A stretch of DNA of 21,763 bases, from IMG/VR virus record IMGVR_UViG_3300031232_000035, positions 1 to 21,763 of that record. One strand, 5' to 3'. The stretch comes from a virus. Below the pieces are notes generated by a model. That model was not told where the DNA came from. It did no database searches and saw nothing but the letters and a program-made list of their open reading frames with translations. A program made the translations under genes and the position numbers. Shown here piece by piece: positions 2,740-21,477 of the stretch; positions within the stretch are counted from its first letter, which is position 1, and each line of letters begins with the position of its first letter.

Positions 2740-3024
2740 TTGATCGTCGTGACCCTGTCCAAGCTTCGCTTGTCGATCGAAGGTCATGCGGTCGGCGGCA
2801 GAGGCGCCAGCTGGCTCCGTGCCTGCGCTGCCGTGTCCGCTGTTGCGTTCATGCTCAAGCCTCGGCAGGCCCGCAAGACGGTGCCAGGCTCTGCAGCGTT
2901 CGATCTGTACCAGCATGCCGGCCCGCGACGTGAGCCTGGTGAGCTCGACGCTCGTGCACTGGCTACGCTGCGGCAGCTCGCGCGCACCTACCCTGACCAC
3001 GTCAAGATCAAGGTGACTACGTGA
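2740..3024 (+). CDS. Hypothetical protein upstream of terminase
   Basis: The 94-residue product starts at TTG (2740), chosen because GGAGG at 2728-2732 stands 7 nt before it; the stop overlaps the terminase start (GTGA, 3021-3024). The sequence begins MIVVTLSKLRLSIEGHAVGG, has a short hydrophobic patch (WLRACAAVSAVAFML, about residues 25-39) too short and interrupted to be a confident membrane span, and ends with a helical segment and a basic tail. Its position immediately before the large subunit is where many phages place the small terminase, but I see no helix-turn-helix clear enough to claim that. Function unknown. Confidence 0.55.
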   Translation: MIVVTLSKLRLSIEGHAVGGRGASWLRACAAVSAVAFMLKPRQARKTVPGSAAFDLYQHAGPRREPGELDARALATLRQLARTYPDHVKIKVTT

Positions 3025-4760
3025 TCGTCTGCGCCCTGTCGACCAGTGCCCTCGCGCAGAAGATCCTCCTGTTCGTCGAGAACTTCTCGAACATGGAGTT
3101 CTACTCGTACCAGCGATTGCCGGCGCTGCGGATCATCGAGAGCCTGCTGCGGAACGACGGCGACGTGATCACCTGCCTGTTCTCGCGCCAGTCTGGCAAG
3201 TCGAACATGCTCGCCGCGCTCGGCGCGGGCCTGACCGTCATCCTGCCGGTGTTGGCCCGGACGTTCCCGGATGATGAGCGGCTCGCGCGGCTCGACACGT
3301 GGGGCTCAGGTCGGGGCATCCAGATCGGCATCTTCGGCCCGAACCAGGAGAGCACCGGTCCGATCTACGAGCGCATGCGCGAGATCGTGATGTCCGAGCA
3401 CGCGCAGGAGATCTGTGCGGACCCCGAGATCTCCGTGCACCTCGTCCAGTCGCGCGGCGACAGCTTGCAGTGGAACACCGGCGCACGCGTTCGAGCGAAG
3501 ACGGCCAACGAAGGCGCGTTCGTCGAGGGCAAGACCTACCACCTGGTCATCATCGACGAGGCGCAGAAGGTGCTTGGCGCCAAGGTCCGCAAGGAGATCT
3601 CGCCGATGCTCGCCGCGACCAACGGCACGATGGTCAAGATCGGAACGGCGTGGATGAGCCGCGGCGGCTTCCATCTCGACATCCAGACCAACATCCTGGT
3701 GCAGAAGAACGGCGGCAAGCAGAACCACTTCGAGTTCGACTACGAGATCGTCATCCGCGAGAAGCGCGCGCTGTACGACCGGCAGAAGCGCAGCTACGAC
3801 CAGTACCAGCAGCAGATGGCAGACCTGCGCGCTGGTCGCCGCAAGGAACCGCCGGCGGCCAACCTCCGTACGGTCGTTCCTGACGCCACCCACCTGTCCT
3901 ACGAGAAGTGGCTGACGGGCGAGATCCGGCGGCTCGGCGGGACGCACAGCGAGGAGTTCAAGATGAACTTCAAGCTCGCGTGGCAGGAGTCGCGGCAGAT
4001 CGCGTTCACGGACGACGAGCTGACACGCGGCGCGATGCCCAACGTCGAGATGGTGTCGAGCCAGCGCCGCGGCGTCATCGTCGCCGGCCTCGACATCGCC
4101 AAGTCGAACGACAGCACCGTGCTCACCGTGACCGAGGTCGACTTCTCGATCCCGATCCACGAGGCGGACGTCAGCCGCGCGCAGACCACGCCGGTCGACG
4201 TCCACTACATCAAGAGGATCCTCGGTTGGAAGGAGCTGCAGGGATCGTTCGAGAACCTCCAGTACGGAGGCATCGTCGACTTCCTGTCTGGCTTCGCGGT
4301 CCAGCGCCTCGTGGGCGATAGCACCGGCATGGGCGATCCTGTGATGGAGCGGCTCGAGGTTCTGCTGGCTCCGCTCGCCATTGAGGTTGTTCCGTTCCGC
4401 TACGGGACCGCCAGCAAGAGCGACCTCTACAAGTATTATCTCCAGGAGTTCAAGAGCGGGCGCATCCAGTACCCTGCGGGCGAGCTGACGCAGGACTCGA
4501 TCGAGTTCCGGCACTTCATCGAGCAGCACAGCGACCTCGTGCGCGAATATGTGGGCAGCTACCTGTCGTGCTCAGCTTCAGAGGAGTCGCTGCACGACGA
4601 CTACCCGGACAGCAGCGCGCTCGCGGTGTGGGCCTCGCGGGACATCATGACCGCGCGCGAGCTGCCGTCGATGGAGGTCTCCGGCTTCGGCGCTGTCGGC
4701 GTGACCAGGTTCGGCAGCGGCGGACCGTCCCGCTTGGAGCGCTACCGTAGGCACCGCTGA
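3021..4760 (+). CDS. terL: Terminase large subunit (packaging ATPase-nuclease)
   Basis: The 579-residue product is the motor that cuts and pumps DNA into the prohead through the portal. The ATPase half shows an adenine-binding-type YSYQRLPALR region (about 29-38), a terminase-style Walker A SRQSGKS (55-61), a Walker B LVIIDEAQ (175-182) and the coupling motif GTAW (208-211). The RNase H-like nuclease half shows the acidic strand GLDIAKSNDST (Asp358), a second acid in VGDSTGMGDP (Asp433) and a third cluster HDDYPDSSALAVWA (Asp526-530). All core motifs are intact, and length is usual. The GTG start at 3021 overlaps the preceding stop. The portal lies 1.3 kb downstream, separated by small genes including a second lysine-rich protein. 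The identification is firm; the headful or cohesive-end packaging type cannot be told from the sequence alone. Confidence 0.95.
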   Translation: MIVCALSTSALAQKILLFVENFSNMEFYSYQRLPALRIIESLLRNDGDVITCLFSRQSGKSNMLAALGAGLTVILPVLARTFPDDERLARLDTWGSGRGIQIGIFGPNQESTGPIYERMREIVMSEHAQEICADPEISVHLVQSRGDSLQWNTGARVRAKTANEGAFVEGKTYHLVIIDEAQKVLGAKVRKEISPMLAATNGTMVKIGTAWMSRGGFHLDIQTNILVQKNGGKQNHFEFDYEIVIREKRALYDRQKRSYDQYQQQMADLRAGRRKEPPAANLRTVVPDATHLSYEKWLTGEIRRLGGTHSEEFKMNFKLAWQESRQIAFTDDELTRGAMPNVEMVSSQRRGVIVAGLDIAKSNDSTVLTVTEVDFSIPIHEADVSRAQTTPVDVHYIKRILGWKELQGSFENLQYGGIVDFLSGFAVQRLVGDSTGMGDPVMERLEVLLAPLAIEVVPFRYGTASKSDLYKYYLQEFKSGRIQYPAGELTQDSIEFRHFIEQHSDLVREYVGSYLSCSASEESLHDDYPDSSALAVWASRDIMTARELPSMEVSGFGAVGVTRFGSGGPSRLERYRRHR

Positions 4761-4763
4761 GCG

Positions 4764-4772
4764 TGGTAGCGT
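4764..4772 (+). promoter_or_regulatory. Extended -10 promoter (TGGTAGCGT), leaderless
   Basis: TGGTAGCGT fits the extended -10 form TGnTAnnnT and lies 3 nt after the terminase stop codon. Exactly 7 nt separate the box from the ATG at 4780, so the transcript should begin at or next to the start codon. No -35 is evident. The same element and the same 7-nt spacing recur at 8530-8546. Confidence 0.45.
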
Positions 4773-4779
4773 GAGGCCC

Positions 4780-5037
4780 ATGGGCGGATCATCAAAAAGT
4801 TCTGGCAGCAAGTCGAAGGGCCATCCAAAGCCAGGCGGCCACTCGAAGCTCGGCAAGAAGTCCGGTCCAAAGAAGCCGCCCAAGCCCAAGAAAGATCCCA
4901 AGAAGCCGAAGGAACCAAAGAAGAAAGGTGCGAAGAAACCACCGAAGAAAAAGGCGCACGGCGGCGGTGGAACGCATCACGGTGGAAGCACCGGGATCCT
5001 GAAAGCCGTCGGTCGCGTTGTCAAAGAAGCCAGCTAG
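4780..5037 (+). CDS. Second lysine-rich histone-like protein
   Basis: From the ATG at 4780 the product is 85 residues with about 25 lysines. A Ser/Gly/Lys start is followed by a Lys-Pro tract (KKPPKPKKDPKKPKEPKKK, about residues 31-49), a Gly/His stretch (GGGGTHHGG) and a short amphipathic basic helix at the C-terminus (GILKAVGRVVKEAS). It shares the GPKKPP and GAKKPP units with the basic protein at 2430, so the two may be related or have similar roles in DNA binding. A GTG at 4771 is also in frame, but it overlaps the likely -10 box and has no Shine-Dalgarno, so I prefer 4780, probably as a leaderless message. Both AAG and AAA lysine codons are used, unlike the first protein. DNA condensation is inference from composition. 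Confidence 0.75.
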   Translation: MGGSSKSSGSKSKGHPKPGGHSKLGKKSGPKKPPKPKKDPKKPKEPKKKGAKKPPKKKAHGGGGTHHGGSTGILKAVGRVVKEAS

Positions 5038-8545: not shown

Positions 8546-8869
8546 ATGTCCACCTTCATGCCATCGATCGTCGCGCGCACGCTCGGCGTCGGCGACCGCG
8601 CCACTGTGATCGAGCAGCCGGGCAACCCGGCAACCGTCGTCGACCCTCGAGCGGTGAACGACGAGCGCAACCCGATCTTTTTTGCTACCGCCGAGAACAA
8701 GGTGGCTCCGTGGCTCGAGAAGATCCGCGCGAGCAAGCCCTACAAGGTGCTGCCGGGCGGCCGACTGGTTCATCGCGGCGAGCAGCCCCTCACGGCTCCT
8801 CACATGCCGCGTCAAGTCTCGCTCGGCCACGACAGCAACCTCAACACGTCGTCTGGCCGGCACCTCTGA
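8546..8869 (+). CDS. Hypothetical protein in the head gene cluster
   Basis: The 107-residue product starts at an ATG with no Shine-Dalgarno but with an extended -10 exactly 7 nt upstream. Sequence features are modest: an N-terminal half with VIEQPGNPATVVDPRAVN, a central helix (NKVAPWLEKIRASK) and a basic, Gly/His/Ser-rich C-terminus (RQVSLGHDSNLNTSSGRHL). No domain, cysteine cluster or membrane segment is visible. The stop overlaps the next start (TGATG at 8867-8871). It is probably a small virion or assembly protein because of its position between portal and scaffold, but that is inference from neighbours only. Confidence 0.55.
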   Translation: MSTFMPSIVARTLGVGDRATVIEQPGNPATVVDPRAVNDERNPIFFATAENKVAPWLEKIRASKPYKVLPGGRLVHRGEQPLTAPHMPRQVSLGHDSNLNTSSGRHL

Positions 8870-9057
8870 TGAGCCGCCCTTCCCAAGGCGAAACCGGCGG
8901 TGTCGGGTCGATCTACAGCGCGCGGCTCAGCGAGCGTCACACGCCGTCCGCAAAGTGCGCCAAGACGCCGGCTGGCCGCGCGTACGTCAAGCGGATGCAG
9001 GCCAGCCGCGATGTCCACAAGGACGTCCCGGTCAAGGCCAAACCGACCCGCAAGTAG
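8869..9057 (+). CDS. Small protein sharing the GSIYSA motif with its neighbour
   Basis: Starting at ATG 8869, overlapping the previous stop by one base, this gene encodes 62 residues. Residues about 5-22 (QGETGGVGSIYSARLSER) are nearly the same as a segment of the gene at 9143 (QGEVGGAGSIYSAQLNER), so the two proteins share a short conserved unit. The remainder is basic (KCAKTPAGRAYVKRMQASRD and a KAKPTRK tail). I recognise no family. The shared motif, repeated in two adjacent genes, suggests that both bind the same partner, possibly a capsid component, and supports both being real genes. The overlap suggests translational coupling. Confidence 0.65.
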   Translation: MSRPSQGETGGVGSIYSARLSERHTPSAKCAKTPAGRAYVKRMQASRDVHKDVPVKAKPTRK

Positions 9058-9065
9058 CGTCGCGC

Positions 9066-9094
9066 TGGACTTCGGGGGTCCACACAGTTAGGCT
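9066..9094 (+). promoter_or_regulatory. Hairpin followed by a -10-like box before the gene at 9143
   Basis: TGGAC (9066-9070) can pair with GTCCA (9078-9082), and TAGGCT (9089-9094, TAnnnT) follows. The same TAGGCT hexamer occurs in the promoter at 8059. The leader then runs to AAGGAG (9129-9134) and the ATG at 9143. Here there is no TGn extension and no good -35, so this site is weaker than the others. Confidence 0.3.
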
Positions 9095-9142
9095 GCCTTG
9101 TAAGACATCGTTCGGTGTCAACGTCAACAAGGAGAACCTGAC

Positions 9143-9418
9143 ATGGCAAGTGGAACAAATCGTATGGCGACCGGCGTGGGCGCCGCCGCCAGCCAGAGCG
9201 TCGACGCGACCGAGGACGGTACGACCGGTGAGACCGGCCCGAACTCGTCCCAGGGCGAGGTCGGCGGCGCCGGCTCGATCTACAGCGCTCAGCTCAACGA
9301 GCGCCCCAACATCTCCAACCCGCGCAACCAGGGGCCGGTTCGGAACCCGTCCATGCTCGGCCGCGCGTCGATGCCGGTCGTCACGGCGTCGCAGCGCCAC
9401 ACGGGCAAGATCAGCTAG
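9143..9418 (+). CDS. Small protein with GSIYSA motif, head gene cluster
   Basis: The 91-residue product begins MASGTNRMATGVGAAASQ, is Gly/Ser/Thr/Asn rich and likely flexible, and contains QGEVGGAGSIYSAQLNER at about residues 37-54, closely matching the upstream neighbour. It ends VVTASQRHTGKIS. AAGGAG at 9129-9134 is 8 nt before the ATG, a strong ribosome binding site, so the protein is probably made in quantity. No enzyme motif is visible. Position before the scaffold and capsid genes and a good Shine-Dalgarno suggest a virion or assembly component; the exact role is unknown. Confidence 0.65.
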   Translation: MASGTNRMATGVGAAASQSVDATEDGTTGETGPNSSQGEVGGAGSIYSAQLNERPNISNPRNQGPVRNPSMLGRASMPVVTASQRHTGKIS

Positions 9419-9454
9419 CCGCTGACCAGCCAGCAACCCCGGTAAGCACAGCAC

Positions 9455-15905: not shown

Positions 15906-17672
15906 GTGCCCAACTACCGTTCACCTGGTCTGTACTTCGAGGAGCCGCAAAGCTCGCCCACGCTCGTCACCGCCGCCCCCACCGATGTTGGTGCGATGCT
16001 CGGCGCAGCCACCAAGGGGCCGCCGAACAGGCCGGTCCGCATCACGTCGCTCGACCAGTTCTTCCGGGCGTTCGGCACGTACTTCACCGGGTCGTACCTG
16101 GCACATGGCGCTCGCCAGTTCTTCGAGAACGGCGGCACCGCGTTGTGGGTGAGCCGCGTGATCGGAGCGAGCGGCAGCGTGGTTGCAGCCCGCCAGCTGT
16201 CGAACACCACGCCATCCAGCACCATCCTGCTCGGCGCGTTCTCGGTCGGATCACACGGCAACCTGCTGAGCTGTGACGTCGACCGGGTGAATCCTGTCGT
16301 CGGCGCGCTCGCGACCAGCCTCGGCACAGGCGCCGTGACGTCTGCGGTGCTGAGCGACGTCCGCCAGCTCTATGTCGGCGCGACGATCAACATCCTCAAC
16401 ACGACCAACCTCCGGGTCACCATCACAGGGATCGATCCGACGTCCAAGACGGTGTTCTTCCCGTCGCGCGCGCCGAGCGGCGCGATCACCGCGGCCGGCT
16501 CGACCGTCACGCTCGAGGAGTTCTCGATCACCGTGCTGCGCCAAGGCGTCGTCTCCGAGACGATCCCGGCGGTCGGCGGCATGGCGATGGACCCGACGGC
16601 CGGCAACAAGTATTTCAAGAACGTCATCAACAACAACGACCCGTTCCGCGAGATCGTGGTTACGACCGACAACCTGCTGGCCAACAGCAACACGGTCGAT
16701 CCGCGTCCGGCCAACGACACGGTTCCCGTGCTGTTCGCTGCCGGCGCTGATGGAACGGCGGTCGCCGAAGCCGACATCGTCGGGACCGTCGGCCCCCCAG
16801 GCACCGGATACTTCGCCTTCGATTCGGTCAACGAAGCGTCGATGCTCGCTGCACCTGGCTGGTCAACTGCGGTCTCGAACGCCGGCTTGATCAACTACCT
16901 CGAAGCACGGCTCAGCACCAAGATGTGGGGCATCATCGACGCGCCGAGCGGTCTGACGCCGGCCGGTGCGATCACGTACGTGCAGAGCACAGCGCAGCTG
17001 TTCTCGGCCAACGTCTCGATCTACTACCCGTGGATTCAGCAGGTCGACCCGACCTTCCCAGGCACGCCGAGCGTCCAGAACCTGTTCCCGCCAAGCGGCG
17101 CGGTCATGGGCATGGCAGCTCGCACCGCCTCCAAGTTCGGCGTCCAGCGTGCGCCAGCCGGCACCGAGAAGGGTCGGCTGACCAACGTGACCACGGTGGA
17201 GCGCAAGCTCCTCCAGGCTGACACTGACATCCTCAACCCAGCAGGTATCAACGCCATTCTGGCGCTCGACGGCAAGGGTGTGTGCGTGATGGGTGCTCGC
17301 ACGCTCGCCAAGGGCGACTTCCTCTACGTCAACGTGCGCCGGGTGTTCAACTACATCGAGGCGTCGCTCAAGCAGTCGTACGACGTCATCCTGTTCGAGG
17401 AGAACGACGAGCGGACCCGGTCGTGGATCGAGCGTGGCATCACGTCGTTCCTCAACCAGGAGTGGCGCAACCGCCGGCTCAAGGGCAAGACCGCCTCGGC
17501 CGCGTTCACCGTGAAGTGCAACGAGGACAACAACCCGGCCAGCACGCAGGCGGCGGGCCAGCTGTTCACGGACATCGGGCTTGCGGTCGCTAACCCGGCC
17601 GAGTTCGTCATCTTCCGGCTGTTCCGAGACCAGCGCGAGGCACAGGCCGAGCTGGCGGCGGCTGGTCTCTAA
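15906..17672 (+). CDS. Contractile tail sheath protein
   Basis: The 588-residue product forms the contractile outer tail. It starts with the family's N-terminal SPGLYFEE (about 6-13) and ATKGPPNRPVRITSLDQFFRAFG (about 36-58), has an inserted beta-rich surface part in the middle, and ends with the sheath core: RRVFNYIEASLKQSYDVILF (about 479-498), FLNQEWRNRRLKGKTASAAF (about 516-535), CNEDNNP and a closing VIFRLFRDQREAQAEL. These C-terminal motifs are diagnostic for phage tail sheaths. A GTG start at 15906 is preceded by CAGGAGACC. The tail tube gene follows after 24 nt with its own GGACAGGAG site, as in most myoviruses. Length is within the usual range. Confidence 0.95.
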   Translation: MPNYRSPGLYFEEPQSSPTLVTAAPTDVGAMLGAATKGPPNRPVRITSLDQFFRAFGTYFTGSYLAHGARQFFENGGTALWVSRVIGASGSVVAARQLSNTTPSSTILLGAFSVGSHGNLLSCDVDRVNPVVGALATSLGTGAVTSAVLSDVRQLYVGATINILNTTNLRVTITGIDPTSKTVFFPSRAPSGAITAAGSTVTLEEFSITVLRQGVVSETIPAVGGMAMDPTAGNKYFKNVINNNDPFREIVVTTDNLLANSNTVDPRPANDTVPVLFAAGADGTAVAEADIVGTVGPPGTGYFAFDSVNEASMLAAPGWSTAVSNAGLINYLEARLSTKMWGIIDAPSGLTPAGAITYVQSTAQLFSANVSIYYPWIQQVDPTFPGTPSVQNLFPPSGAVMGMAARTASKFGVQRAPAGTEKGRLTNVTTVERKLLQADTDILNPAGINAILALDGKGVCVMGARTLAKGDFLYVNVRRVFNYIEASLKQSYDVILFEENDERTRSWIERGITSFLNQEWRNRRLKGKTASAAFTVKCNEDNNPASTQAAGQLFTDIGLAVANPAEFVIFRLFRDQREAQAELAAAGL

Positions 17673-17696: not shown

Positions 17697-18170
17697 ATGC
17701 CTCGCTCAAGTATCGAAGACCCCCTCAAGAACTCCAACTTCCTCGTCGAAGTCGATGGCTTCGCGAAGGCCGGCTGCACCGAGGTCACCGGGCTCAGCCG
17801 CAAGACCGAGGTCATCAAGTACCGCGAAGGCGGCGACAACGCACAGCCGCGTCTCAGCGCCGGTACCACCGACTTCGATCCGATCGTCATCAAGCGCGGC
17901 ATCTTGCCGGCGACACAGAACGGGGTCGATGACTTCCGCCTGTGGCTGCAGCAGGTGCACAACGTCCAGGCCGTGCGCGCCCAGTCGAAGGACTACCGTC
18001 GCGACCTCGACATCCGCGTGCCCAACCGCGACGGCTCGACCGGTGCGCTGTACCGGATCTACAACGCGTGGCCGAGCGACTGGAAGGGTGGCGACCTCAA
18101 CGCCATGAACAACGACACCTGGATCGAGGAGCTGACGCTGCAGAACGAAGGTGTCGAGCGCGTCCTCTAG
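17697..18170 (+). CDS. Tail tube protein, T4 gp19-like
   Basis: The 157-residue product makes the inner tube of the tail through which DNA passes. Family features include NFLVEVDGFAKAGCTEVTGL (about 12-31), a KYREGGDN turn (about 42-49), VIKRGILP (about 65-72) and the closing LTLQNEGVERVL. These match the T4 gp19-type tube family (length about 150-170). It directly follows the sheath with a strong Shine-Dalgarno (GGACAGGAG before ATG 17697), the universal sheath-tube order. After its stop lies a terminator-like hairpin, which suggests that sheath and tube are the last genes of one transcription unit. Confidence 0.95.
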   Translation: MPRSSIEDPLKNSNFLVEVDGFAKAGCTEVTGLSRKTEVIKYREGGDNAQPRLSAGTTDFDPIVIKRGILPATQNGVDDFRLWLQQVHNVQAVRAQSKDYRRDLDIRVPNRDGSTGALYRIYNAWPSDWKGGDLNAMNNDTWIEELTLQNEGVERVL

Positions 18171-18278: not shown

Positions 18279-19136
18279 ATGTACGCACCATCGCAGATCG
18301 CTCTGGCAGAGAACGAGTTCGAGCTTCGCTTCAACGACGACGGCTCCGTCGCCAGCAGGTACCAGCTCGTGGACGTCCGCGGCGAGCTTGAGTTGCCGAT
18401 CGGCTTCTCGGTCGGCGACGTTTTCCATCGCGAGGCGTCGATCGCCCCAATGACCGGCATCGAGGAGGACATGCTCACCGGTGACCACGGCGACCCGATG
18501 ATTCGGATCGTCGCATCGTGTGTGACCCGCCTCGGGCCGATCGAGGTGCGATACGACGACCGTTCGACCGAGACGCGCCGTTCTATGCTTGAGGCGGTCA
18601 AGAAGCTGACGATCGCCGACATCACGTTTCTGCTGTTCGCGATCCGGCGTCGGTCGTTCGTCACGGGCAACGACTACAAGTTCAGCGTCCTTTGCCGGAA
18701 CAAGCGGTGCAAGAACCGCCAGCACAACCACAGGGTCGATCTGGGATCCCTCAACATCCGGCCGGCTCCGTCTAACGTTGCTCGCATCTATGAGTACAGG
18801 CTGCCTGTCACCGGCAAGGTGGTTCGCTTCGGCATGCCCGGGTCCAACGACATCGATCGCCTGATCGCGCTGCAGAAGCAACACGAGGAGGATCGCGCCA
18901 GCGTCGAGCTGTACGCCTCGATCATCGATGTTGACGGCGCCAAGCTCAAGTCGTACCTCGACACGAAGATGTGGCCGCTGGACGACCGCGACTCGCTCCG
19001 CGGCGAGATGTCCGACAAGGTCAACTACGGGATCGACGTCAAGGTCGACGTCGCCGACTGCCCCGGCTGTGGCAGCACGATGGAGGTGGGAATCGACATC
19101 AAGCCGGGTTTTTTCCGACCCACGCTGAGCCGCTGA
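18279..19136 (+). CDS. Tail assembly chaperone, upstream (zero-frame) product
   Basis: The 285-residue product sits between tail tube and tape measure, the position of tail assembly chaperones. I choose the ATG at 18279 because GAAAGG (18266-18271) precedes it; an in-frame ATG at 18195 would translate the terminator-like hairpin and the promoter. The protein starts with strands (LAENEFELRFNDDGSV), has helical parts, and carries four cysteines in two pairs, CRNKRC (139, 144) and CPGC (261, 264), which could form a split zinc ribbon; baseplate-related proteins of T4-like phages placed here sometimes have similar pairs. A TTTTTTC slip site near the end (19109-19115) would let some ribosomes enter the -1 frame. 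The zero-frame end is FFRPTLSR. Length is greater than usual for such chaperones, so a baseplate-type protein is the alternative. Confidence 0.75.
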   Translation: MYAPSQIALAENEFELRFNDDGSVASRYQLVDVRGELELPIGFSVGDVFHREASIAPMTGIEEDMLTGDHGDPMIRIVASCVTRLGPIEVRYDDRSTETRRSMLEAVKKLTIADITFLLFAIRRRSFVTGNDYKFSVLCRNKRCKNRQHNHRVDLGSLNIRPAPSNVARIYEYRLPVTGKVVRFGMPGSNDIDRLIALQKQHEEDRASVELYASIIDVDGAKLKSYLDTKMWPLDDRDSLRGEMSDKVNYGIDVKVDVADCPGCGSTMEVGIDIKPGFFRPTLSR

Positions 19137-19315
19137 CGGTTGGACGAACCAGCGACGGCGTGGAGATACAGCTCTCGGCCTTCATGCAGGACTGCACGGT
19201 CATCAGCCGTGAGTGGCGCTGGCCGCCGAGCGAGATCAAGAAGATGACGATCCTAGAGCGCGAGAACCTGGTCAACCTCGCGATCCTGTACGACCAACGA
19301 AGGCGCAACAGATGA
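18279..19315 (+). CDS. Tail assembly chaperone, -1 frameshift extension product
   Basis: If ribosomes slip back one base at TTTTTTC (19109-19115), the zero-frame protein (279 residues to the slip) continues for 66 more residues in the -1 frame and stops at 19313-19315, giving about 345 residues. The extension (PTHAEPLTVGRTSDGVEIQL at its start; ISREWRWPPSEIKKMTILER further on) has good composition and no other start signal: there is no Shine-Dalgarno and no suitable ATG at its head, so frameshifting is the natural way to express it. Its stop overlaps the tape measure start (ATGA at 19312-19315). In many tailed phages the analogous G/GT pair is made by such a slip and both forms load the tape measure. 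The joined coordinates are 18279-19115 then 19115-19315. Confidence 0.72.
19109..19115 (+). promoter_or_regulatory. Programmed -1 frameshift slippery heptamer TTTTTTC
   Basis: Read in the zero frame the bases are T TTT TTC, a perfect X XXY YYZ heptamer in which both tRNAs can re-pair after slipping back one base. The zero frame stops 21 nt later and the -1 frame runs to the tape measure start. A hairpin follows at 19131-19154. Confidence 0.78.
19131..19154 (+). other. Hairpin downstream of the slip site
   Basis: CGCTG (19131-19135) pairs with CAGCG (19150-19154) and GTT (19139-19141) with AAC (19147-19149), with a 3-nt bulge and a 5-nt loop. It begins 15 nt after the heptamer, a little farther than the usual 5-9 nt for a stimulatory structure, so its effect on frameshifting is uncertain. 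Confidence 0.4.
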
Positions 19316-21477
19316 ACATGGGATTCGGCCTGGTTTTCAACGCTGCAACCAGCGGCGTCGAGCGCGGCATCGGCCGGATCGAGGGCATGCTCGGTGACCT
19401 GTCGGGCACCGTGGCAGCTGTCGGCAGCGAGCTTCGCGAGACGTTCGAGCACAGCTTCGGCTTGCTGGTGAAGACCGGCAAGTCGCTGATCGACACGTCT
19501 GCAGAGGTCGAGCATGCCGTCCAGGAGATGGCGTTCGCCTACCGCGACATGAAGGACGTCAACGCGTTCGAGCACGTCAAGGAGCAGGTCTCCGACGCGT
19601 CGCTCTACTCGATGCAGACCCAGAAGGAGCTGCACGACATGGTCGCGATGATGAAGCAGGTCAACAACGTCGACATCTTCAGCCCGCGTGTTCAGCAAGA
19701 GGTCGACAAAACGAACTTGGCGATCAAGAACAGCGCCGTGCTGCTGTCGGAGGTCGGCTTGGCGGCGAGATCAGACGTCGGTTTGCAGGCCGGGATCTTC
19801 GCGCTGATGAACGGTCACATGAAGCGAGCCGCCATGATGCTGCGGCCGATCGCCGCTCACCTGGACGACTACGACAAGGCGCTTGCCGGCGTCACCGACA
19901 ACACCGAGAAGTGGGCGAAGCTGGTCCCGCTGCTCGCTCGCGACTTCGGTGACCTGACGAACTACCTGATGGACACGTGGCCATACCTGAGCAACCAGAT
20001 CAAGGACGTCCAGCAGAAGCTGTGGTCGACGCTCGGGACGCCGATGATGAACGCGCTCAAGGGTCCGCTGCACGAGTTCCTCGACTACTTCACGAAGCCC
20101 GGCGAGGGTCTGCTGACGCACGAGAACATCCACAAGCTCGACGCGATGGCTGCTGCGTTCGGCGACATCGGCAGGTTCATCGCGACCACGGCGACGTACC
20201 TTGGTGGGCTGGCTCGGCACATGTTCGAGTTCACGATGGCTCACCCGAACCTGATCAAGATCGTCGGGGCTGTCACAGCGATCATCGGCGCCGCAGCCGG
20301 TCTTGGCGCGGCGATCGTGGCGATCAAGCTCGGCGTCATGTCCGTCGCCTTCGCGTTCAGCGGGCTGTTCACCACGATGCTGCCCGTGGCTATCCTGGTC
20401 GGCGTGCTTGCCGGCGCCGTCTACATGCTCGCGAAGTGGGCCGTGAACGGCGAGGGTGTGGCCGACACAATGGAGCGGATTGGTATGGTGCTGTCGGCCG
20501 TGTGGGAGGGCCTCTCCAACATCAACAACGGCATGGCTACCCTGTCCGAGAGCACGGTGAACGCGCTGGACGACAAGGGGCTCACTGGCGTCACGACCAC
20601 CCTCCTGCAGACCGGCTACAGGGTGAAGAAGATGTTCGAGTCCCTGTGGGAGGGCTTGAAGGAGGCGTTCGGCCCCGGCGGCTTCGCGCACGAGTCGCTT
20701 CTCTTCTTGAGCGACCAAGTCAAGAACCTCATGGGCGACGTCGGCGACACGATGGGCCTGACGGCCACGGGCGCAAGCATCGACTGGTCGAACGCGGGCT
20801 CGGCGATCGCCGGCGTGATCAGCACGATCGTCGGCGCGTTCGGCTACGGGTTCGGCCTCATCGTGCGGGCGATCGACTTCTCGGTGATCGCCATCGGCTA
20901 CCTGATCGACGGGCTCGGCTCTGTCAAGCAGGGCATGAACGGTCTCGAGCAGGAGGCACATCCGCTGCTCAAGACGCTTCGAGAGATCAAAGGAATCTGG
21001 GACTGGTACAACGACCAGGGCGACTACGAGCCCGGTGACCAGGGCACGCTGTCCGACAAGGGATCCGGCTCAGGCGCCGGCGGATACGACAACGTCGGCC
21101 AGTACACCAAGTGGATGCAGCGCAAGGTCAGCGCGATGCAAACGGGCATGCAGCGCCCGGCCGCGAAGCAGGTTGCTGACCTCTACAACCCGGACGATCG
21201 GACCGAGTTCGAGAAGAAGAACGACGCGCTGATCATGAGCGGTGATGCCGCGGGCCTGCTGTCCGGCGTCAACCCGAGCCAGTGGTTGAAGAACCAGGAC
21301 CAGATCAGCGGGACCTCGACGAAGGCGCTCGAGGAGCGGCTCGCGAAGTACCACGAGGCGATCCTGCAGGTGGCGAGGTCGCCGATCGCCGTGTACATGG
21401 ACGGCCAGCTCGTCGGCCAGGCCATGGACAGGAACCAGGCCCACATGGACGAGCGAACAGGTAGGATGGGAAAATAG
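19312..21477 (+). CDS. Tail tape measure protein
   Basis: From the ATG at 19312, overlapping the frameshift product's stop (ATGA) and preceded by GAAGG (19299-19303), the product is 721 residues. The frame is open upstream, but only through the chaperone extension. The first ~300 residues are mostly helical (VEHAVQEMAFAYRDMKDVNA, LYSMQTQKELHDMVAMMKQV). Hydrophobic helices lie at about residues 317-380 (IVGAVTAIIGAAAGLGAAIV and following) and 499-538 (IAGVISTIVGAFGYGFGLIV), typical of tape measures that thread the tube and later reach the host membrane. The tail of the protein is polar. By the rule of about 0.15 nm per residue this would set a tail of roughly 110 nm. No lysozyme or peptidase motif is visible in it. 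Confidence 0.9.
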   Translation: MNMGFGLVFNAATSGVERGIGRIEGMLGDLSGTVAAVGSELRETFEHSFGLLVKTGKSLIDTSAEVEHAVQEMAFAYRDMKDVNAFEHVKEQVSDASLYSMQTQKELHDMVAMMKQVNNVDIFSPRVQQEVDKTNLAIKNSAVLLSEVGLAARSDVGLQAGIFALMNGHMKRAAMMLRPIAAHLDDYDKALAGVTDNTEKWAKLVPLLARDFGDLTNYLMDTWPYLSNQIKDVQQKLWSTLGTPMMNALKGPLHEFLDYFTKPGEGLLTHENIHKLDAMAAAFGDIGRFIATTATYLGGLARHMFEFTMAHPNLIKIVGAVTAIIGAAAGLGAAIVAIKLGVMSVAFAFSGLFTTMLPVAILVGVLAGAVYMLAKWAVNGEGVADTMERIGMVLSAVWEGLSNINNGMATLSESTVNALDDKGLTGVTTTLLQTGYRVKKMFESLWEGLKEAFGPGGFAHESLLFLSDQVKNLMGDVGDTMGLTATGASIDWSNAGSAIAGVISTIVGAFGYGFGLIVRAIDFSVIAIGYLIDGLGSVKQGMNGLEQEAHPLLKTLREIKGIWDWYNDQGDYEPGDQGTLSDKGSGSGAGGYDNVGQYTKWMQRKVSAMQTGMQRPAAKQVADLYNPDDRTEFEKKNDALIMSGDAAGLLSGVNPSQWLKNQDQISGTSTKALEERLAKYHEAILQVARSPIAVYMDGQLVGQAMDRNQAHMDERTGRMGK

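Follow-up and report, generated by a model that had tools for sequence, protein, structure and literature searches.

Predicted programmed -1 frameshifting at T TTT TTC in a T4 gp26-type tail assembly chaperone gene of an IMG/VR virus record

Among the tail assembly chaperones described in phages is lambda G/GT, in which a short form and a -1 frameshifted long form are encoded before the tape measure gene, and T4 has been listed as the exception to this G-T frameshifting (2016 review, PMC5009743). The T4-like tail assembly chaperones gp26 and gp51 are the subject of Vladimirov, Gautam and Davidson 2022 (doi 10.1016/j.virol.2021.11.003), and PMC12846349 attributes to this work poly-T -1 signals in the TAC-N genes of T4-like phages. 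A GTTTTT motif has also been reported in other myophages (PMC12846349). In some T4-like phages, according to the published view cited in PMC10885494, there is a short gene together with a separate fused long gene. Descriptions of such chaperones in T4-like phages thus exist, and some of these chaperones have a poly-T slippery site.

In the present study, a locus of this kind was analysed in IMG/VR record IMGVR_UViG_3300031232_000035. The whole stretch, from position 1 to 21,763 (21,763 bases), is called the window here; it has a GC content of 65% and is probably a fragment. Pfam and PHROGs matches on the + strand give the gene order of a contractile-tail module, that is sheath, tube, chaperone and tape measure. 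The tail sheath gene (15906..17672; PF17482 E 6e-11, PHROG 23 E 1e-53) is followed by a tail tube gene of the T4 gp19 type (17697..18170; PF06841 E 7e-32), and the tape measure protein gene is found at 19312..21477 (PHROG 58 tape measure E 2.5e-6). The chaperone gene, with its zero frame at 18279..19136, sits between the tube and tape measure genes, as in the G/GT-type layout.

The zero-frame gene encodes a protein of 285 residues, which the profile, Pfam and the predicted fold identify as a short tail assembly chaperone (TAC-N) of the T4 gp26 type. A profile of 44 relatives, from which the window was left out, found this protein at E 3.5e-30 (next fragment E 2.4) and matched T4 gp26 at E 5e-13. 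The match to Pfam PF12322 (T4_baseplate) had an E of 0.0041 and 17.3 bits, below the cut-off of 24.5, and the same Pfam family was matched by every one of the 35 sequences in the wider alignment. Judged from its sequence, the protein belongs to the T4 gp26 family (T4_baseplate) as a distant member. The C-terminal Phe-Phe and the two cysteine pairs that mark this family are both found in it. The pairs, C139/C144 and C261/C264 (span 18693..19070), had already been pointed out in an earlier, sequence-only reading of this DNA; they are real and are a family-wide feature, with C139 invariant and C144 and C261 almost invariant in 35 sequences, and all four invariant across five sequences. These pairs are probably metal-binding. 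The sequence-only reading had also considered the upstream protein unusually large, a description that is not borne out within its own family, since the members range from about 210 to 295 residues and carry the same two pairs, so that neither the size nor the cysteines are odd.

The AlphaFold2 model of the 285-aa protein (pLDDT 85.7) matches models of viral baseplate hub (assembly) proteins, with a best E of 5e-17. Among solved structures, YqbN (3klu) and the HK97 tail chaperone gp13 (2ob9) came at the top of the VIA comparison, both with middling scores (Z 6.0 for YqbN; Z 5.0 over 97 residues at 3.8 A for gp13), and Foldseek gave gp13 an E of 0.32 with a probability of 0.72. Sequence searches against solved structures returned nothing useful for this locus.

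Towards its 3' end the gene has a slippery site in the correct phase, and the shifted frame runs on without a stop as far as the tape measure gene. The heptamer T TTT TTC occupies 19109..19115, and frame 0 reads GGT TTT TTC CGA across it, which is the -1 phase; its end is separated by 18 nt (six codons) from the zero-frame stop TGA (19134..19136). The -1 frame extension (19112..19315) continues for 66 codons past the heptamer to a TGA at 19313-19315, and this stop forms an ATGA overlap with the ATG of the tape measure gene at 19312-19314. The predicted shifted product would have 345 aa in total. Phase, open frame and overlap had been proposed in the same earlier reading, and all were confirmed by the sequence.

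On both strands of the 21.8-kb window, TTTTTTC occurs once, and the bare heptamer is not rare, as at least one copy was seen in 34 of 100 shuffles. In 12 genes of the window, however, TTT accounts for 7 of 169 Phe codons and T-ending codons for 325 of 4620, and the phased heptamer is expected by chance at about 4e-6 per codon, or about 4e-5 when the final 10 codons of a single gene are considered. Of 11 further window genes, 6 kept the -1 frame open for more than 60 codons past their stop; such a length is unremarkable in this genome of 65% GC, so an open -1 frame alone proves nothing. The extension was tested separately. With a profile built from the extensions of relatives, the window left out, the -1 frame of the window came out on top among 425 six-frame fragments (E 0.0012; next fragment E 6), and the aligned part lies at 19160..19288. 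On this sequence comparison, the extension of the window is homologous to the extension domain of the relatives, called the T domain here. DUF6760 was considered as a name for this domain and dropped, since there was no Pfam match and nothing was found in the literature.

For each relative, the direction of the shift was taken as the frame holding its T domain, and the site was tabulated afterwards. Among viral contigs, genome contigs and phages, the search for close relatives gave only a twin with 99.95% identity, and the comparison of the heptamer covered remote relatives, where it proved to be kept wherever the extension is -1. In the tabulated loci with a -1 extension, window included, phased T TTT TTY was present in 13/13, preceded by a codon for G, S, N, D or H that always ended in T. 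In the loci with a +1 extension it was present in 0/31, and TTT C stood at the same place in 26; two further +1 loci fell outside the site definition. Furthermore, relatives of Synechococcus phage Bellamy gp26 in IMG/VR had the phased heptamer in 80/80, with its first base 10 nt before the stop in every case and with TCT (41 loci), AGT (37) or GGT (2) as the preceding codon. From codon usage, the chance of a phased heptamer in a Ser-Phe-Phe locus of the Bellamy type is about 0.12, a per-locus value which must not be multiplied over the 80 loci because these are related.

On the protein tree, the directions can be explained by two changes (mean after shuffling 12.2), just one of which is forced by well-supported branches. 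The window groups with Bacteroides-type -1 relatives with a support of 93/81, its exact position being unsure because of long branches. We consider it somewhat probable that the site has been fixed at the Phe-Phe end and that the direction has switched between -1 and +1 once or twice, tracking the phase of the T run (T TTT TTY for -1 and TTT C for +1), with proteins that are the same in kind.

A T-domain homologue in the +1 frame was observed in the Streptomyces phages BRock (L003), LuckySocke (L005), GiJojo (L013) and pSt2308 (L014), and likewise in GXN1 (L004), SP-15 (L008) and LIS04 (L009). Traced upstream, each of these seven extensions passes the zero-frame stop and reaches a TTT C (or TTT A) site, and their deposited annotation is a short separate gene or none. 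In the +1 loci without TTT C (L123, L126, L128, L132, L135 and L009), the sites are TTA TTT A, TTA TTC A, TTT TTT A and TTT TTT T, and the shift perhaps takes place downstream at CCC A. Small genes after gene 26 were also noted, namely KVP40.0327 (L015 3822-3989), Bellamy gp11 (L016 3699-3869) and one in Atu_ph07 (L017 3890-4013); as all three are the -1 continuation of a phased T TTT TTC, they are probably parts of a frameshifted long form.

T4 gp26 and gp51 belong to the same protein family as the window gene, and the T domain is shared with the end of gp51. The two T4 proteins are paralogues (E 1.7e-6), and a profile of T4-like extensions finds the T domain at the end of gp51 with an E of 8e-6, against 0.25 for the best of 500 shuffles; when the T-domain profile from all relatives is used on gp51, shuffles score equally well. 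A gp26 paralogue ending in a T domain agrees with the published two-gene arrangement described above. The window differs from T4 in having one locus with overlapping frames, whereas T4 has gene 51 on the strand opposite to gene 26, with a long paralogue made in frame as its product. The C-terminus of T4 gp26 is EFF, coded TTC TTT G, which differs from the -1 heptamer. In the 21.8-kb window, a second full-length paralogue with an in-frame T domain is absent, the family profile giving one match, and a further copy could lie outside this probable fragment.

The T4-like cyanophages and KVP40 are like the window in that their gene 26 carries T TTT TTC at its 3' end and the T domain follows in the -1 frame. 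Unlike the window, they have two annotated genes, low GC and mostly no stable stem-loop, and one codon instead of six lies between the site and the stop. Relatives of the SP-15/GXN1/BRock type have homologous N and T parts, and their site likewise falls at the terminal Phe-Phe (or Leu-Phe), but they carry the extension in the +1 frame, in most cases with TTT C as the site. With lambda G/GT, the window shares the layout and the presumed mechanism, but its N part is about twice as long and has cysteine pairs, and Pfam and PHROGs gave no match of the window protein to a lambda-type chaperone family. The likeness to lambda G/GT that had been suggested for this locus holds for the layout; the upstream protein itself is a chaperone of the T4 gp26 type, with a size normal for its family, and not an oversized gpG. 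The lambda heptamer also differs from T TTT TTC. The gene is placed as T4 gp26 type, not lambda G, and would represent one more lineage among the T4-type chaperones that retains frameshifting.

A predicted RNA stem-loop of 44 nt (19120..19163), a possible stimulator, begins 4 nt past the heptamer. The hairpin described previously at 19131-19154 exists, but it is merely the tip of this larger structure, which comes nearer to the heptamer. The 50 nt from 19116 to 19165 have a folding energy of -23.3 kcal/mol (z -3.8; 0/200 shuffles as stable), and along the gene only 1/328 windows was equally stable. The role of the stem-loop is unsure, since it is unremarkable when windows of 75-100 nt are used and since a comparable stable structure is missing in most -1 relatives; a stem-loop as a general trait of the -1 relatives is thus not supported. 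In addition, a Shine-Dalgarno-like element, GGAGGTGGG, was observed within the gene at 19082-19090, about 20 nt upstream of the heptamer. Its duplex with CACCUCCUU has an energy of -13.8 kcal/mol, and no start codon was found at a fitting distance from it. An effective Shine-Dalgarno stimulator has a spacing of 10-14 nt; the spacing here exceeds this range, and the element was rejected as a frameshift stimulator.

It is very probable, in our opinion, that programmed -1 frameshifting at T TTT TTC lets this locus produce a tail assembly chaperone of the T4 gp26/gp51 type in two lengths; the frameshift and the long chaperone had been proposed in the sequence-only reading. The phase, position and overlap are as in frameshifted tail chaperones, the phased heptamer is improbable by chance in this genome, and the extension is homologous to those of the relatives, in which T TTT TTY goes with the -1 loci and the cyanophage-type loci and is missing from the +1 loci. 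The gene order and the presence of a stable stem-loop at the site also favour frameshifting, and the lack of a stem-loop in most -1 relatives speaks against it. The majority of ribosomes would produce the 285-aa short form. A minority would slip at the heptamer, where the two Phe tRNAs would re-pair one base back, from TTT TTC to TTT TTT, probably assisted by the stem-loop; these ribosomes would read the -1 frame and give the 345-aa form carrying the added T domain. On the analogy of lambda, the part shared by both forms would serve to coat the tape measure protein, and the T domain, present in few copies, would bring in the tube subunits.

The extension could instead be a separate small gene, re-initiated after the zero-frame stop at GTG 19160 or ATG 19184. 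Both codons are in frame and leave room for this explanation; the previous claim that the extension has no start signal is almost correct, in that neither codon has a Shine-Dalgarno sequence at proper spacing. Furthermore, the homologous stretch is annotated as a gene of its own in KVP40, Bellamy and BRock. Re-initiation nevertheless fails to explain why the phased heptamer is kept with the -1 extension and missing with the +1 extension, and in several relatives the stretch from the site to the domain lacks any ATG, GTG or TTG; we therefore regard it as unlikely. Transcriptional slippage in the T6 run, instead of ribosomal frameshifting, would also give a longer form. Slippage at such runs is known in bacteria and a six-T run exists here, but six T are short for efficient slippage, and the direction in the relatives tracks the phase of the run against the codons, which a polymerase would not sense, so this explanation appears highly improbable. 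Even less credence is given to a coincidence of heptamer and open -1 frame with the 285-aa protein as the sole product. The commonness of the bare heptamer and of open -1 frames in this GC-rich genome would allow it, while the low chance of a phased heptamer at the 3' end, the homology of the extension to the T domains of relatives and the like arrangement in these relatives all oppose it. Both transcriptional slippage and coincidence are less likely than re-initiation.

The -1/+1 split at one site within one chaperone family may be new. In the literature searched, the full text of Vladimirov et al. 2022 aside, no account of such a split was found, and this is only weak evidence of novelty. 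The split offers a natural comparison for the evolution of the direction of ribosome slippage. In the deposited genomes of KVP40, T4-like cyanophages, SP-15, BRock and others, the shifted part is annotated separately or omitted.

Some other features were seen elsewhere in the window. A homologue of QueC, from the 7-deazaguanine pathway, is encoded at 1650-2354 (Pfam E 5e-58), which hints at modification of the phage DNA or at host queuosine salvage. Two small proteins dominated by Lys, Gly, Ala and Pro and alike in make-up are encoded at 2430-2660 and 4771-5037, and they flank a large ORF at 3021-4760. At about 8865-9425, two adjacent ORFs contain the motif GSIYSARLSER / GSIYSAQLNER and are perhaps a duplicated small gene.
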